Part shown: in pieces, positions 1,732 to 31,810 of the stretch
Layout of the letters: each line of letters begins with the position of its first letter
Numbering within the stretch: position 1 is the stretch's first letter
NCBI GenBank assembly: GCA_012520295.1
Contig: JAAYOP010000078.1
Location: 1 to 49,432 of the forward strand
Length of the DNA: 49,432 nt
Direction: 5' to 3'
From: Clostridiales bacterium
GTDB taxonomy: Bacteria > Bacillota > Clostridia > Oscillospirales > Oscillospiraceae
Program-made: the position numbers and the translations under genes
Notes under the pieces: generated by a model
What the model saw: only the letters and a program-made list of their open reading frames with translations
Database searches by the model: none
What the model was told of the DNA's origin: nothing

Positions 1732-2943
1732 ATGTCGGAGCTTTTATATTGGCTATGGCTATCAGAGCTAAAAAACGTGGGCTCGGTTACGGCGATGAAG
1801 TATATCGATTATTTTGGCTCGGTAAAAAGAGTTTTTGAGGCCGGCTTTGATGAGATTATTCTAGTACCGGGTTCAAGGCGCTCCGAGGCAGAGCAGCTTA
1901 ATAACAAGGAGCTGAGCCGGGCAAAGAACATATTGAAAAACTGCAGAAAAACGGGAACCGGAATTATAACGCTTTATGACAGCCTATATCCGAAGAGGCT
2001 GGCTAATATTTATGACCCGCCCCTTGTTTTATACTACAGGGGCACCCTGCCAGATATGGACTATGAAGCAGTTATAGGAGTGGTGGGGACCAGGAAGGCT
2101 TCCGTATACGGACTGAAGACTGCACAGAGGATTGCCTCCGAAATAGCCTGCGGCGGCGGTATCGTCTCCACCGGACTTGCCGAGGGAATCGACTCGGCGG
2201 CAGCAAAGGGAGCTCTGAAAGAAGCTGGCTTCGTAATAGGTGTACTGGGCACCGGAACAGATATTACATATCCATCCTGGAACAGAAAACTCCAGAGCAG
2301 GATCGCGTCTGAGGGTTTGCTGCTCAGCGAATATCCTCCCGGACAAAAGGCGACCAGAGGCAGCTTCCCGGCAAGAAACCGCATAATAAGCGGTATAAGT
2401 CTCGGAGTGGCGGTTATTGAAGCGCCTGCTAAAAGCGGCTCTCTTATAACCGCGGCCAGGGCAATCGAACAGGGCAGAGACGTATTCGCAGTACCGGGAA
2501 ATATCGACCTGCGTGGCTTTGAAGGCTCAAATGCGCTGATCAGGGACGGTGCGTATCTCATAACATCCGGTTGGGATATCCTCAGTCAATACGAATGGAG
2601 GTTTCCAGATAAAATATCGGCAGCACCCGTAAAAAGCAAGACAGTCAGCATAGATTTAAAGGAAAATGACAGAAAGGATGCATCGGTCCGGGGAAAAATA
2701 GAGGTTGACAACAATTCAAGCATGGAATATATTGACCTGGAAGAACAAGTTGGCAATTTAACAGATGATGAAATAAAGATTTTACGAGTCATGTCCAGCA
2801 AAGTAATGCATATTGATGAAATAATAATAAACTCAGCCCTGCAGGCAGACAGAGCTCTGGCGGCATTAACTCAGCTGGAGCTGAAGGGCTTTGCCACAGA
2901 TGCCGGGGGAAAGCACTTTCAGCTTAATGTGAAAACTAAATAG
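1732..2943 (+). CDS. dprA: DNA-processing protein DprA
   Basis: DprA loads RecA on incoming single-stranded DNA during natural transformation and is conserved even in bacteria with no known competence. The start is the ATG at 1732, 9 bases after GGGGAGGA (1715-1722); an upstream in-frame TTG at 1723 abuts the site. The 403-residue protein has an N-terminal helix-hairpin-helix/SAM-like part and a Rossmann-like core with VGVVGTRKASVYG, STGLAEGIDSAA, GVLGTGTD and PARNRIISG motifs. A C-terminal winged-helix domain covers about residues 340-400. The order dprA-topA-trmFO is widespread in Bacillota. Confidence 0.95.
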   Translation: MSELLYWLWLSELKNVGSVTAMKYIDYFGSVKRVFEAGFDEIILVPGSRRSEAEQLNNKELSRAKNILKNCRKTGTGIITLYDSLYPKRLANIYDPPLVLYYRGTLPDMDYEAVIGVVGTRKASVYGLKTAQRIASEIACGGGIVSTGLAEGIDSAAAKGALKEAGFVIGVLGTGTDITYPSWNRKLQSRIASEGLLLSEYPPGQKATRGSFPARNRIISGISLGVAVIEAPAKSGSLITAARAIEQGRDVFAVPGNIDLRGFEGSNALIRDGAYLITSGWDILSQYEWRFPDKISAAPVKSKTVSIDLKENDRKDASVRGKIEVDNNSSMEYIDLEEQVGNLTDDEIKILRVMSSKVMHIDEIIINSALQADRALAALTQLELKGFATDAGGKHFQLNVKTK

Positions 2944-3025
2944 CATCTTTGATATGCGGAGCTTTGCGGTAAACGGACAATTAATATAGTATATATAATG
3001 ATTAAACTTTAAGTGAGGAAAACTA

Positions 3026-5245
3026 ATGGCAAAAGAAGGGAAAAATCTTGTTATCATAGAATCACCATATAAAGCCAAAACCATCGGCAAAATATTGGGT
3101 AAGGATTATATCGTTGCCGCCTCGGGTGGACACTTGAGGGACCTTCCTAAAAATAAAATGAGTGTTGATTTGGAAAACGGCTTCATTCCGGACTATCAGC
3201 CGATTAAAGGGAAGGAACAGACGATAAATGAACTGAGGGAAAGCGCAAACAAAAGCGAAAAAGTATATCTTGCAACGGACCCCGACCGGGAGGGTGAGGC
3301 AATATCCTGGCACCTTAAGGAGCTTTTGGAATTGTCCGATGAAAAAGCTTTTCGTGTAACATTCAATGAGCTGACCAAAAAGGTGGTAATTGAAGGCATA
3401 CAATCTCCCAGGCCCATAGATATGAATTTGGTTGACGCCCAGCAGGCAAGAAGGATTTTGGACCGAATAGTTGGATATAAGCTCAGTCCGCTCCTCTGGA
3501 GCAAAATAAAGCGGGGATTATCGGCCGGCAGGGTCCAATCAGTAGTTACCAGAATGGTAGTGGACAGGGAGGAAGAGATAAAGGCATTTGTTCCGGAGGA
3601 ATACTGGCTTCTGGATGTGGTGCTCGAATGTATAGGGAAACCCGGCTCCTTCACCGCCCGCTTCCACGGGGCTGCAAAAAAACAGGAGCTTAAGAGCAAA
3701 GAAGAACTTGACAAAGTGGTGGAAGCCATAAAAACAGCGCCTTTTACTATAAAAAGCGTAAAGAGAAGGGACAGGCAAAGGGCGCCTTCCGCTCCGTTTA
3801 TAACCTCAACCCTTCAGCAGGAGGCCTCAAGAAGGCTTAATATGACTCCAAAACGCACGATGATGATTGCACAGCAGCTCTATGAAGGCATTGATATAAG
3901 CGGCCAGGGAACCATAGGCATCATAACATATATGAGAACGGATTCCCTGAGAGTTTCACAGGAGGCTCAGGAGGCGGCAAAGAGCTTCATTCTGAATCGA
4001 TACGGAAGTGAATACTATCCCAAGAGTCCCCGTGTTTTTAAAACAAAAAAAGGTGCACAGGATGCCCATGAGGCTATCAGGCCCACGGAGATTACCCTCG
4101 AGCCGGAGAGCATAAGAAAAGACCTGACAAATGACCAGTACAGGCTTTATAAGCTGATTTGGAACAGATTTATGGCAAGTCAGATGGCAAATGCCGTTTA
4201 TGACACTGTAACCATTGAAGCTCAGTCAGCGGGATATGTTTTTAAGGCTAATCATTCCTCCCTGAAGTTTCCGGGCTTTACGGCTCTCTATGATGACAAC
4301 GGGAAGGACGAGGAGGATAAAAACGACAAAAAGCCCCTGCCAGAGCTTCAGGAGGGCGAAGAGGTTAACCTGTCGGACATTGTCAGCGAACAGAAGTTTA
4401 CCCAGCCGCCTCCCAGATACACGGAGGATTCCCTTATAAGAGCAATGGAGGAAAAGGGAATAGGCAGACCGAGCACATATGCTCCCACCATGTCTACGAT
4501 TATGGACAGGGAATATGTGGTGAAGGAGGGGAAGCATCTAAAACCCACCGCTCTCGGCCAGGTTGTCACTCAGCTTATGAAGGATAGGTTTGAGGACATT
4601 GTAGATGTGGAGTTCACGGCAAGACTGGAAGAGCGTCTTGACAGCATTGAAGAGGGAGAGCGCGAGTGGAAAAGCGTCCTTGCCGAGTTTTATGATGATT
4701 TTGCCCAGGCGTTAAAAGAAGCCGAAGCCGCTCTGGAAGGCGTGAGGATAAAGATACCTGATGAGGTGACTGAGGAGATATGCGATGAATGCGGGCGAAA
4801 TATGGTCATAAAATCTGGGCGTTTCGGAAGGTTTCTGGCCTGTCCCGGATATCCTGAGTGCAACTTTACAAAGCCACTGGTTATTGAAATGCCCGGGAAA
4901 TGCCCGAAATGCGGAAACAGGATACTTAAGCGCAGCTCCAAAAAGGGCTATACCTATTACGCATGTGAGAAGGGAGCCCAATGTGGCTTCATGACATGGG
5001 ATGTTCCCGTAAAGGATTCCTGTCCCGAGTGCGGGCAGACTATGTTTAAAAAATCGGGAAGAGGATACAGGAAACCCTTTTGCATAAACGAAGCCTGCTC
5101 TAACTTTGTGCCTGAGGAAAAGAGAGGCTATAAAAAGAAAGCGAAAACCGATGCCACGGAGCCTGAAAAACAGGAGAACAATACAGAAAAAGAAAAAGGA
5201 ACGCAAGGAAAAAACAAAAAAGCCCAAAAAGGGACTGATAAATGA
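3026..5245 (+). CDS. topA: DNA topoisomerase I (type IA)
   Basis: Relaxes negatively supercoiled DNA by cutting one strand. The TOPRIM domain holds Glu12 (IIESPYKAK) and the acidic triad D85-P-D87-R-E89. Tyr302 in ITYMRTDS is the catalytic tyrosine that links to the 5' phosphate. Three C-terminal zinc ribbons of the four-cysteine type follow (CDECG..CPGYPEC, CPKCG..CEKGAQC, CPECG..CINEAC), then a lysine-rich tail of about 35 residues. The length of 739 residues is normal for the family. The site GAGGAAA lies before the ATG. The stop overlaps the trmFO start (ATGA). Confidence 0.97.
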   Translation: MAKEGKNLVIIESPYKAKTIGKILGKDYIVAASGGHLRDLPKNKMSVDLENGFIPDYQPIKGKEQTINELRESANKSEKVYLATDPDREGEAISWHLKELLELSDEKAFRVTFNELTKKVVIEGIQSPRPIDMNLVDAQQARRILDRIVGYKLSPLLWSKIKRGLSAGRVQSVVTRMVVDREEEIKAFVPEEYWLLDVVLECIGKPGSFTARFHGAAKKQELKSKEELDKVVEAIKTAPFTIKSVKRRDRQRAPSAPFITSTLQQEASRRLNMTPKRTMMIAQQLYEGIDISGQGTIGIITYMRTDSLRVSQEAQEAAKSFILNRYGSEYYPKSPRVFKTKKGAQDAHEAIRPTEITLEPESIRKDLTNDQYRLYKLIWNRFMASQMANAVYDTVTIEAQSAGYVFKANHSSLKFPGFTALYDDNGKDEEDKNDKKPLPELQEGEEVNLSDIVSEQKFTQPPPRYTEDSLIRAMEEKGIGRPSTYAPTMSTIMDREYVVKEGKHLKPTALGQVVTQLMKDRFEDIVDVEFTARLEERLDSIEEGEREWKSVLAEFYDDFAQALKEAEAALEGVRIKIPDEVTEEICDECGRNMVIKSGRFGRFLACPGYPECNFTKPLVIEMPGKCPKCGNRILKRSSKKGYTYYACEKGAQCGFMTWDVPVKDSCPECGQTMFKKSGRGYRKPFCINEACSNFVPEEKRGYKKKAKTDATEPEKQENNTEKEKGTQGKNKKAQKGTDK

Positions 5246-27531: not shown

Positions 27532-28077
27532 TTACCTTAAAAAAATAGTACCAAAAACTCCTGACAGCAGAACCAAAATAACCGGGCTTGCCTTTTTATA
27601 TATCAGTAAAAAGGAGACAACTGCGGCAATGGCCAGAACAGGTATATCAATCGAAGCCGGTACAGCGCCGGGAAACAGGGAGGCAGAGCCGATGGAAACA
27701 AGACCGGATAAAACAAGGGCTAATACTATGGGCTTAATTCCCGCTAAGATTGAGAGGATAATAGGGCTGCTGCGGTAAGCAAAAAACCATTTTGAGACAA
27801 GCAGGCAGATAACGAAAGAGGGCAGTACAACTCCCAGAGTCGCTATCAGGGCACCGGGAATCCCGAAAAGCTGCATACCTGAAAAGGTGGCGCAATTAAC
27901 TGCAAAGGGGCCTGGTGTCATTTGGGAGATAGCCACCATATCAATTGCCTGCTCAAGAGACATGAGCCCTCTTGATACCAGCTCTTGCTGTATAAGCGGA
28001 ATCATTGCCATTCCGCCGCCGATTGTAAAAAAGCCGATTTTTGCAAATATAAAAAATAGTTGGATAAGCTCAGTCAT
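27532..28077 (-). CDS. Chromate transporter, second half-size subunit
   Basis: 181 residues with about five or six hydrophobic helices and the ChrA signature FFTIGGGMAMIPLIQQEL near the start and QMTPGPFAVNCATF after it. It is one of two half-size CHR proteins that together equal a full ChrA. The family exports chromate, although many anaerobe members have no tested substrate. The start overlaps the stop of the preceding gene, so the two halves are co-translated. Confidence 0.93.
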   Translation of the reverse strand: MTELIQLFFIFAKIGFFTIGGGMAMIPLIQQELVSRGLMSLEQAIDMVAISQMTPGPFAVNCATFSGMQLFGIPGALIATLGVVLPSFVICLLVSKWFFAYRSSPIILSILAGIKPIVLALVLSGLVSIGSASLFPGAVPASIDIPVLAIAAVVSFLLIYKKASPVILVLLSGVFGTIFLR

Positions 28078-28666
28078 TTATACTATTCCATTTCTTTAGT
28101 ACCAGATAATAGAGTACAAAACCTGCTGCCGCGCCGCCTATAATCAGAAAAACCACATTCAGGGAAGGGAATATGAAGATGAGTGCAGCCGCAATAATAA
28201 AAAAAATGACTGCGTATTTATCGGCAAGGTTCTTTCTATAGAGTTTATGAAGAGTCGAAATAAAAAGCGCGATAACCGCGCCGCTGACTCCGCGCAAAAA
28301 CCCACGTACATACGGACTGTCTACAAAGAAATTGTAAAAGACTGTTACCAGGCACAGTACAATCACAGATGGCAGGATTGCACCGATACCGGCCAGGATT
28401 GCCGCCGAATTTCCTCCAATGCGGTAAGCCACCATAACTGATGAATTGACTGCGATAACTCCTGGCAGCGACTGAGCTACAGCGGTAATATCGCTGATCT
28501 CCTCAGAGGAAACAAGTTCATTTTTCTCGGAAAACTCAGAATGAATGACAGATATCATCGCCAGTCCGCCGCCAAAGGTTACAAGACCCATTTTAAAAGT
28601 AGACCAGAATATTTTTAGCAAAAGCTTTATTCCGGCACTATTTATATTTTTCATTTTTTTGTCCAT
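28070..28666 (-). CDS. Chromate transporter, first half-size subunit
   Basis: 198 residues. LVTFGGGLAMISVIHSEF and QSLPGVIAVNSSVMVAYR are the CHR-domain motifs, followed by several membrane helices. It pairs with the downstream half by an 8-base overlap. No good ribosome site is visible before its ATG; an internal ATG at codon 5 is another option. A well-formed promoter lies about 80 bases upstream. Confidence 0.92.
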   Translation of the reverse strand: MDKKMKNINSAGIKLLLKIFWSTFKMGLVTFGGGLAMISVIHSEFSEKNELVSSEEISDITAVAQSLPGVIAVNSSVMVAYRIGGNSAAILAGIGAILPSVIVLCLVTVFYNFFVDSPYVRGFLRGVSGAVIALFISTLHKLYRKNLADKYAVIFFIIAAALIFIFPSLNVVFLIIGGAAAGFVLYYLVLKKWNSIND

Positions 28667-28743
28667 AAAACACCGCTTTGCTGGCTTATTTTCTGTACGG
28701 ATATTGCCAGTTTAATCGTTAAAAATGCTTTAATATTAGAAAA

Positions 28744-28772
28744 ATTATAACATAGGAAGTATATGTTTGCAA
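28744..28772 (-). promoter_or_regulatory. Promoter of the chromate transporter genes
   Basis: Read on the minus strand: TTGCAA (28767-28772), 17 bases, TATAAT (28744-28749). The spacer holds a near-palindrome, CATATACTTCCTATG, a possible operator. Confidence 0.6.
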
Positions 28773-28798
28773 TAAATCATAAAACATAAACCTTGGCG

Positions 28799-28827
28799 TT
28801 GACAAACACTCAAAGCTGTGCTAATAT
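28799..28827 (+). promoter_or_regulatory. Promoter of tRNA-Ser
   Basis: TTGACA, 17 bases, TAATAT. The -10 ends 21 bases before the first base of the tRNA. It is divergent from the chromate transporter promoter. Confidence 0.65.
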
Positions 28828-28848
28828 GAATTTCGCCTGAAAAAATAC

Positions 28849-28937
28849 GGAGAGATGTCCGAGTGGTTTAAGGAGCTGGTCTTGAAAACCAGTGACCGGG
28901 CAACCGGCCGGGGGTTCGAATCCCTCTCTCTCCGCCA
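28849..28937 (+). tRNA. tRNA-Ser (UGA anticodon)
   Basis: The acceptor stem GGAGAGA pairs with TCTCTCC. The anticodon stem is CTGGT/ACCAG with loop CTTGAAA, giving anticodon TGA at 28883-28885. A long variable arm (GACCGGGCAACCGGCC region) is typical of serine tRNAs. GGGGGTTCGAATCCC forms the T arm. The CCA end is encoded (28935-28937). It is a single gene with its own promoter and terminator. Confidence 0.97.
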
Positions 28938-28941
28938 GAAC

Positions 28942-28979
28942 AATAATCCTGTCGAATTTCGTCGGCAGGGTTATTTTTT
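28942..28979 (+). terminator. Intrinsic terminator of tRNA-Ser
   Basis: A 13-base stem (AATAATCCTGTCG with CGGCAGGGTTATT, two wobble pairs) followed by a T-run. Confidence 0.85.
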
Positions 28980-29242
28980 ATTTCTTTTTATTTCTTATTT
29001 AATATCCCAATTAATGCCTGTTCTCAGTTAAAGGAAATTGGGGCGTATGACCGAAAAATACATTCAGGCAGTCAATCAATATATCTAAAACAGGGAAAAA
29101 ATGTTTTGGATTGTTGAAATCAGAAAGCTATACTCCGTGGTTAAAATTACCCTGTTAAATTAGAATGTATAATTAATGGGTTTAGTAAAAACCTTACACA
29201 TAATATCATACAAATATTGTTAAAAAAGCATGCTCTTCACGG
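28980..29242. other. AT-rich gap after tRNA-Ser
   Basis: No open frame, no RNA gene and no strong promoter can be made out here. The whole gap between the tRNA and the PadR gene is about 520 bases; its right part holds the nested inverted repeat described separately. Confidence 0.5.
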
Positions 29243-29371
29243 TTTTTTGTTACTTGTTTTTGCTATTTCGGACATTGCTCGGAATACTAATATATGTTAC
29301 TATTAACGGGGTTTAATAGTAACATATATTAAAATAATAGCAGGTTGTATGCAAAACATGTAACAAAAAAC
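29243..29371. repeat. 129-base nested inverted repeat upstream of a PadR gene
   Basis: The inner part is a perfect 18-base inverted repeat (TAATATATGTTACTATTA at 29288-29305 and its complement at 29314-29331) around an 8-base loop. The outer arms, GTTTTTTGTTAC (29243-29254) and GTAACAAAAAAC (29360-29371), are also perfect and extend inward with one mismatch and one gap. TGCTATT/AATAGCA (29262-29268/29336-29342) forms a third pair. The whole could fold into one long hairpin. It may be a miniature inverted-repeat element or a double operator; ATGT..ACAT dyads are typical PadR targets. Confidence 0.6.
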
Positions 29372-29457
29372 TTAAAAAGTTGCAGATTCATATAAAAAAA
29401 GATATAAACTATTCTTAATATGAAACGATATTAATAGTATGAAAGAGGGTGAATAGG

Positions 29458-30036
29458 GTGTCTATCAAGCATGCAATTATGAGCTGCCTTTATAAAAAGC
29501 CTTTTTCAGGATATGACCTGTCTAAAATGTTTGACGGAACAGGTAATTTTTACTGGGCTGCAACACATACACAGATATACAGAACACTATCGGAGCTAGA
29601 CAGCAACGGTATGATTAAGAGCCAAACGATTGAACAGGAACAAAGCCCTAATAAAAAGATTTATTTCCTTACGAAAGAGGGCCAAACAGAGCTGTTCAAG
29701 TGGCTTAATACTGAAATGGAGGTCGAGCCGATCCGGGATAAATTCCAGCTGCAATTTTCCTTTCAGTATTATCTGAGCGATCAGGAAATAATCAATAATA
29801 TGGAAACCAGAATAAAAAAACTGGAGGACAGGTTAAGCAGCCTGAGAAGCAGTGGATATTATAAGGATTTGAAAAACGTCAGCAGCGAAAAGGAACGCCT
29901 TCTTAAGTATCTGTCCCTGGAATACGGTGTCGGTATATATGAATATGAGCTTCAGTGGCTGAAAAAGGGTCTGAGCAGATTTAAGGAATTGGTTGAAAAC
30001 AGCGCGCCAAAGGAAGTCGAAAAACCAATATTCTGA
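29458..30036 (+). CDS. PadR family transcriptional regulator (long form)
   Basis: A winged-helix regulator of about 193 residues. SIKHAIMSCLYKKPFSGYDLSKMF and THTQIYRTLSELDSNGMI match the PadR N-terminal domain. The C-terminal half is helical, like the Vir_act_alpha_C dimer domain. Two GTG codons compete for the start: 29449, which overlaps the ribosome site, and 29458, which follows GAGGG by a normal distance; I prefer 29458. No target gene follows, so autoregulation through the upstream inverted repeat is plausible. Phenolic acids or drugs are typical inducers of the family. Confidence 0.88.
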   Translation: MSIKHAIMSCLYKKPFSGYDLSKMFDGTGNFYWAATHTQIYRTLSELDSNGMIKSQTIEQEQSPNKKIYFLTKEGQTELFKWLNTEMEVEPIRDKFQLQFSFQYYLSDQEIINNMETRIKKLEDRLSSLRSSGYYKDLKNVSSEKERLLKYLSLEYGVGIYEYELQWLKKGLSRFKELVENSAPKEVEKPIF

Positions 30037-30711: not shown

Positions 30712-31425
30712 CTAACTTACGCCACCAAACCAGTTCCAGACATGCCAGAAAGGCTTGAAACCGGCAACCATAAACATCAGAAACAAGGCGAGAATAAAGG
30801 ATCCTGTAAACAAACCGAAGGTCGCCAGAGCTACGCGACTGCAGCCCCGCTTTAGTCTGTCGCTGATAGCAGGTTTCCTGGGCAAGGAAATTGTGGCGGG
30901 TTTAAAAACACTCCTATGCCATTGCCGGTACATTCTGATAAAATGAACAGTGTAGCAATAGAAGCATATCACTCCCACCGAGGATAAAACAGCCAGAGCC
31001 AAAAAGGATACTCCCAGTACGGAATTGCAGGGGAAGGGAATATATAAAAAGGATATTTTAATCTCAAAAATCAGGGTAAACCCGAGAGCAAGGCACGCAA
31101 GGGAGAACGCTGCTATACAGGCCAGCCAGGCAAAGAGGAGTATAATGAACATAAAAACAAAAACATCGGCAAAGAACACACCAATTCCAAAAAGGAATTT
31201 TGACATACCGCGGGGCGCGTCTCCGCCTGTATGTGCAGGAGCTTTAAACTGGGCGGCGATAGCCTCCGGACTTCCGAGCCTGGCAGATATCTCCTCTTCG
31301 GAGCAACCTTCGGCAAGCTTTTGTCGGAAATGCTCTTCATAATCGGCAATTATATCCTCGTAATCGGGAATGGAGTTTGCCTTCAGATGAATTTTGAGCT
31401 GATGAAGGTACGTTTCTTTATTCAT
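30712..31425 (-). CDS. DUF1700 family membrane protein
   Basis: The ATG at 31425 follows GAGGAGG and gives 237 residues. The first 75 residues (MNKETYLHQLKIHLKANSIP, then YEEHFRQKLAEGCSEEEISARLGSPEAIA) are the DUF1700 helical domain. Four or more hydrophobic helices follow. The family nearly always follows a PadR gene, as here, where the two overlap by 8 bases. Its role is unknown, though such pairs are linked to envelope stress. Confidence 0.88.
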   Translation of the reverse strand: MNKETYLHQLKIHLKANSIPDYEDIIADYEEHFRQKLAEGCSEEEISARLGSPEAIAAQFKAPAHTGGDAPRGMSKFLFGIGVFFADVFVFMFIILLFAWLACIAAFSLACLALGFTLIFEIKISFLYIPFPCNSVLGVSFLALAVLSSVGVICFYCYTVHFIRMYRQWHRSVFKPATISLPRKPAISDRLKRGCSRVALATFGLFTGSFILALFLMFMVAGFKPFWHVWNWFGGVS

Positions 31426-31741
31426 TGAAATCCTCCTCGGCCAATATATCATTTACAGCCGCCACAAAGGTTTGCCATTCAGCTTTTGCTTTTTGATATT
31501 CATCTCTGCCCAGAGAAGTCATGGTGTAATATTTTCTGGGCGGACCGCCGCTTTCCTCAGACAGATATGTGGTGACCAGCCCCTCACTTTTCAGCTTCCG
31601 TAAAATCGGATAGACGGTACCGTCTGCTATATCTATCCTTTTTGACAGAAACTCGGAAACATCGTAGCCGTATCTGTCGCCCCTGTTTAGCAGGGACAGG
31701 ACACAAAGCTCCAGAACACCTTTTTTATATTGAGTATTCAT
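31418..31741 (-). CDS. PadR family transcriptional regulator (short form)
   Basis: 107 residues: a single winged-helix domain with KKGVLELCVLSLLNRGDRYGYDV and IADGTVYPILRKLKSEGLV. The ATG at 31741 follows GGAGG by 5 bases; upstream in-frame ATGs lack a site. It overlaps the DUF1700 gene and is probably its repressor. A near-perfect promoter lies upstream (31811-31839). Confidence 0.92.
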   Translation of the reverse strand: MNTQYKKGVLELCVLSLLNRGDRYGYDVSEFLSKRIDIADGTVYPILRKLKSEGLVTTYLSEESGGPPRKYYTMTSLGRDEYQKAKAEWQTFVAAVNDILAEEDFNE

Positions 31742-31810
31742 CTTGCCTCCGTTCATAAACTGCACAGACCCAAATGTTAAAAAGAAAATATGTCCCCAGC
31801 ATCACTATTG

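Follow-up and report, generated by a model that had tools for sequence, protein, structure and literature searches.

The window analysed here is a stretch of DNA of 49,432 nucleotides. The nested palindrome under study is located in the 520-bp intergenic region between a tRNA-Ser gene and the gene of a PadR-family regulator (padR). The following features are relevant to its interpretation.

27532..28666, minus strand: split chromate-transporter pair (28070–28666 and 27532–28077), a conserved neighbour and possible PadR target
28849..28937, plus strand: tRNA-Ser(TGA), between chrA and padR
28942–28975: terminator-like hairpin after the tRNA-Ser(TGA) gene
29242..29260: left outer arm of the palindrome, with TGTTAC at 29248
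29288..29331: inner palindrome with 19-bp perfect arms and the loop CGGGGT, candidate distal PadR operator
29303..29330, plus strand: promoter-like TTAACG-16-TATATT within the palindrome (9/12 in the promoter scan)
29353..29371: right outer arm, with GTAACA at 29360
29380..29408, plus strand: weak alternative promoter-like TTGCAG-17-TATAAA before the proximal motif, seen on reading the sequence and uncalled by the scan
29418..29440: padR-proximal motif ATATGAAACNNNNTTAATANTAT at -40 (congener counterpart at -50), candidate proximal operator
29458..30036, plus strand: PadR-family regulator gene, with PadR and Vir_act_alpha_C domains

The preliminary description of the locus placed a PadR gene downstream of the palindrome, and the domain assignments agree with this. 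The product of the gene reaches 46.1 bits with PF03551 (cut-off 27) and 30.0 bits with Vir_act_alpha_C (PF10400, cut-off 22.4), a domain tied to PadR subfamily 1. The start codon was assigned to the GTG at 29458, since the ATG of the orthologue in the congener G001, the only other genome of the genus compared, aligns with it; the open frame would also allow a start at the GTG at 29449. Twelve solved chains are related to the protein by sequence, including the PadR-family chains 5x11 and 6jyi and the activator AphA (1yg2). Relatives on plasmids were found in 140 records, every one of them below 60% identity. A second, short PadR gene (31418–31765, minus strand), followed by a HAAS-domain gene (30712–31452, minus strand), lies about 2 kb away.

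Chromate-transporter genes are located beside the tRNA-Ser and PadR genes in both genomes of the genus (27532–28666 in the window and 2907–3506 in the congener locus L006), and the gene order chrA, tRNA-Ser, padR is kept in the congener. Among 112 loci with PadR relatives, inspected with flanks of up to 1.5–3 kb, chrA is a neighbour in these two only. The earlier statement that the PadR gene has no targets is therefore doubtful: the chromate-transporter pair across the tRNA gene is its conserved neighbour, and PadR-type regulators encoded beside chrA have been described in print. Regulation of the chromate-transporter genes resembling that by ChrI (see below) is possible. In the chrA promoter region (28660–28850), the search for an operator yielded only imperfect repeats, and nothing in common with the congener was seen by eye.

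Geometry of the nested palindrome

The arms of the inner palindrome (29288–29306 and 29313–29331) are 19 nt long, show 100% complementarity and enclose a loop of 6 nt. The perfect inner repeat reported in the preliminary description is thus real, with an arm length of 19 rather than 18 bases. The outer repeat, given there as about 21 bases, is also present; its arms (29242–29260 and 29353–29371) are 19 nt long, complementary at 18/19 positions (95%) and separated by 92 nt, and their outermost 12 bases form an unbroken run (29242–29253 and 29360–29371). The centres of the inner and outer pairs, 29309.5 and 29306.5, are 3 bases apart, which makes the two pairs nearly concentric. A third pair had been noted between them and does exist (TGCTATT at 29261–29267 and AATAGCA at 29336–29342). 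It was given no weight, because it is only 7 bp long and the two segments flanked by an inner and an outer arm show no likeness beyond that of shuffled letters, 1420 of 2000 shuffles scoring equally well.

The inner and outer arms are not due to chance, as the very small odds estimated earlier had implied. The longest perfect arm in the 520-bp region is 19, whereas 300 dinucleotide shuffles gave arms of 14 at most, and the 18/19 match of the outer concentric arm was reached in none of 1000 shuffles (maximum 15). Of all perfect hairpins in the 49-kb window with loops of up to 150, the inner pair has the longest arms. The predicted folds are very stable, with -46.3 kcal/mol for the RNA of the plus strand (z -7.0), -44.2 kcal/mol for that of the minus strand (z -9.9) and -30.4 kcal/mol for the DNA (z -7.9); in each case 0 of 200 shuffles were as good. 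Of the ATGT..ACAT dyads pointed out in the preliminary description, a symmetric pair is found in the inner arms (29294–29297 and 29322–29325). It is 24 nt apart, and the form ATGT-N8-10-ACAT was not found on reading the sequence of 29242–29371.

Nearly concentric arms of this kind may be left behind as a neutral, functionless quasi-palindrome by a template switch during replication, and the single occurrence of the structure and its lack in the congener would fit such an origin. The heart of the palindrome, however, resembles the padR-proximal motif, and the middle segments carry no trace of a common origin. We regard a template switch as an unlikely explanation.

Copy number and possible transcription of the palindrome

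The symmetry was said to suit a miniature transposable element equally well, and a count of the copies was proposed as a check, many copies favouring a mobile element and a single copy an operator. This count gave one place only in the own genome, with no second copy of the palindrome. The outer-arm pattern occurs there at 41 places with up to 3 mismatches, compared with 66 for the backward control, and matches with fewer than 2 mismatches are found solely at the two arms themselves. Of sixty relatives, the own genome included, two gave a match; the one in the other genome is 27 bases long (E 2.6e-4) and lies outside the palindrome. Twelve of 400 family genomes showed a match at E<=0.01. One of them is the own genome; each of the other 11, inspected one by one, has a single short stretch of apparently chance similarity. 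In one of these 11 (L037), 12 bases are repeated in inverted orientation about 110 bp away at an apparent coding-frame start, which was also taken as chance. The arm-pair pattern gave 0 hits in genome contigs and 0 in viral contigs, in collections which may lack records close to the own genome, and the inner-arm pattern gave 0 in viral contigs. No match to the palindrome was found in the plasmid collection; the phage collection contained one weak match (E 0.007) covering part of the region. An exact target-site duplication of 4–9 bp was not found with the boundaries shifted by up to about 6 bases.

These results bear on the possibility that a miniature inverted-repeat element entered the region between tRNA-Ser and padR and is still present, intact or as a relic, with the outer arms as its terminal repeats and the inner arms as an internal symmetry. 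Its size of about 130 bp, the AT-rich sequence, the nearly concentric nesting, the nearby tRNA gene and its lack in the congener would agree with an insertion. A MITE would be expected to occur in several copies, or alongside an autonomous relative, and to have a target-site duplication; none of these was found here. Since no other copy was detected in the collections searched and no target-site duplication is present, a mobile element is unlikely. The single copy, together with the lack of a convincing homologue and of a target-site duplication, places the palindrome on the operator side of the proposed check.

The strong folds on both strands and the promoter-like site inside the palindrome would also be compatible with a transcribed hairpin, either as a small RNA or within the leader of the padR transcript or of a read-through transcript. 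The promoter-like site is at chance level, as 5 such sites occur in the region compared with 4.1 expected. In addition, only tRNA reached the gathering score in the Rfam search of 28700–29700, the scan called no terminator-like site at the hairpin, and there is no homologue with which covariation could be assessed. A transcribed hairpin appears unlikely. No plus-strand call was made by the promoter scan before the proximal motif of the window; in the congener, a good promoter (TTGACA-17-TATTTT) directly precedes the corresponding motif.

Dyads and shared motifs before padR genes

Relatives of the regulator were collected with a two-row PadR alignment scan (114 relatives, the best 80 kept) and with a family search, in which 24 of 400 genomes, counting the own genome and the congener, contained a PadR relative. 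In the tree of 103 rows, the window protein and its congener are paired (100/100) and remote from the remaining rows. Perfect arms of at least 10 bp are present within 100 bp before 22 of 101 padR genes (L067, L147 and L148 left out) and before 17 of 357 other open frames, compared in GC bins. The excess is seen in the bin below 40% GC, with such arms in 20 of 53 PadR upstreams and 5 of 48 controls (one-sided p=0.0013); in the 40–50% and >50% bins there is no excess. The p values are optimistic, since the control frames (at least 150 aa) were called mechanically and are not annotated genes, and the rows are related to each other. This comparison supersedes an earlier one of 101 PadR upstreams (with L067, and without L109, which was too short) against 511 controls, which was not GC-matched. 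Dyads are frequent upstream of the padR genes of AT-rich relatives. The longest-armed examples include L166 (22-bp arms), L079 (20) and L102 (19). The dyads of L079, L080, L102 and L106 are long and directly precede a homologous padR gene, as in the window, but at a shorter distance from it (up to about 75 bp). The window palindrome is located at -170 to -127, beyond the range counted in the relatives, and the last 100 bp before the window padR contain a 7-bp arm at most.

Two further observations were made in this survey. The Anaerolineales PadR gene of L080 is preceded by a 54-bp perfect palindrome without a loop, 69 to 15 bases upstream. In a different PadR group from this family (L163, L154, L157, L159 and L167), ACATGT-type dyads are found about 75–125 bases upstream, for example 119 to 83 bases before padR in L163, and one of them has 18-bp perfect arms.

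One clade of relatives (L102, L105, L106, L109, L135 and L151) shares ATGTTANNNNTAACAT-like sites at -40 to -43, which match 11–12 of the 12 positions. Eight loci were scanned, and the remaining two, L103 and L089, match 11/12 at -67 and -54. The site of L106 is identical by eye to 29290–29307 of the window at 17 of 18 bases, and the best single 16-mer of the window, ATGTTACTATTAACGG, matches 10 of the 12 positions of ATGTTANNNNTAACAT. A matrix was built from five of the six clade loci; L109 was omitted as a near copy of L106. Its top score in the window intergenic region is at the two arms of the palindrome (11.8, reached by 11 of 500 shuffles), far below the 24.8–29.6 of its own clade sites. 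The best score in the congener is 4.9 (166 of 500 shuffles), and the top over the whole window is 14.2 at 31771, directly before the second PadR gene. The window PadR stands outside this clade and differs from it in the presumed recognition-helix region. The likeness of the palindrome to the clade sites is suggestive only.

The PadR orthologue of the congener is 55–58% identical to the window protein, and its 434-bp intergenic region contains no such palindrome. Compared in 23-nt stretches, the two intergenic regions agree best at ATATGAAACNNNNTTAATANTAT (18/23). Its letters are weak by themselves, since 15 of 200 shuffles reach the same match; the matching position before padR adds to them. 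A consensus was built only from the two padR-proximal sites, one in each genome, the likeness of the palindrome heart having been noticed before the test. In the window, the second-best match of this consensus is the heart (29297–29319; 15/18; 13 of 1000 shuffles); in the congener, it is a distal site (14/18; 25 of 1000 shuffles). The distance from the distal to the proximal site is 121 bp in the window and 126 bp in the congener. A candidate two-site layout is seen in both genomes, the palindrome only in the window. The 16-mer ATGTTACTATTAACGG at -164 and the congener sequence ATGTTGCCTTTAACGG at -198 agree at 13 of 16 positions and belong to the group of top matches, but this is only what shuffles give on average as their best match (12.9). 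Looping with a matched helical phase was considered but is not supported, as 121 and 126 bp correspond to about 11.5 and 12.0 turns, an unequal phase. The congener distal motif is contained in a divergent promoter-like sequence, TTGACA-16-CATATT, which faces the tRNA and chrA genes (L006 2172–2199).

Two motifs were used in regulon searches. The first one gave 34 places (17+17), compared with 24 (17+7) for its backward control, which is no clear genome-wide enrichment; 3 of the 34 are in the palindrome's own intergenic region. The second motif showed no clear enrichment either (84+83 = 167 places and 92+76 = 168 for the control).

The proposed operator and known PadR systems

We propose that the inner palindrome (29288–29331) is an autoregulatory operator of the PadR-family repressor encoded downstream, a reading to which we assign a probability of about 0.55. 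An inverted repeat is located upstream of padR, as expected of an autoregulatory operator. A PadR dimer would read two inverted half-sites. One such site would be the palindrome heart, TACTATTAA-N6-TTAATAGTA, and a looser copy of it at 29418–29440, immediately before padR, would be the other. The occupied sites would hold down padR transcription, and this repression would be lifted when a ligand loosens PadR. The statistical support for the operator, which comes from sequence comparison, is moderate. The operator suggested in the preliminary description gains from the single copy, the dyads of the relatives and the likeness between heart and proximal motif, and it loses from the lack of the palindrome in the congener and from an ATGT..ACAT spacing other than 8–10 nt. 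We infer PadR binding, repression and the effect of any ligand, and the chromate-transporter genes may also be controlled; the computed basis consists of the palindrome, its position, the failure to detect a further copy, the two-site likeness, the two-site layout of the congener and the dyad frequency among the AT-rich relatives.

The operator reading leaves the outer arms unaccounted for. They may provide further weak half-sites, each with TGTTAC, or aid the formation of a cruciform. In an extended version, several PadR dimers would hold a composite, cruciform-capable operator made of four TGTTAC half-sites (29248, 29295, 29319 and 29360) and the proximal site, and would repress padR and possibly the chromate-transporter genes through DNA shape as well as sequence; we consider this version very improbable.

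If the proposed operator is correct, a pair of operators can be predicted for a small group of PadR regulators encoded next to chromate-transporter genes, a group for which no study was found in the literature searched. The long perfect palindromes which often precede the padR genes of AT-rich relatives offer a simple rule by which PadR operators may be predicted from the sequence.

The arrangement can be compared with three described systems. LmrR is autoregulated, and several dimers bind its own promoter at ATGT/ACAT inverted repeats; LmrR and PadR-s1 operators have the ATGT/ACAT elements with a spacer of 8–10 nt (PMC3506622, PMC4534193). Inverted ATGT/ACAT elements are likewise present in the promoter DNA of the window, whereas the spacer of its symmetric pair is 24 nt. 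The cdPadR1 regulator of Clostridioides difficile has two sets of inverted repeats in its own promoter, TACT..AGTA with an AT-rich core, and its operators are described as tolerant of spacing (PMC5050560). The window heart, TACTATTAACGGGGTTTAATAGTA, is alike, although its spacer is 16 compared with 11–12 in the cdPadR1 operators, and cdPadR1 is a PadR-s2 protein, whereas the window protein contains a Vir_act_alpha_C domain. ChrI of Bacillus cereus SJ1 is a chromate-induced PadR-type regulator encoded beside chrA (PMC2936356). In gene context, to which this comparison is confined, the window also has a PadR-type gene near chromate-transporter genes, with the difference that a tRNA-Ser gene is located between them and the genes are divergent. 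Inverted repeats are an established means of autoregulation among PadR proteins, and these sources also describe regulators of the PadR type encoded next to chrA; the candidate operator would therefore belong to a known kind.
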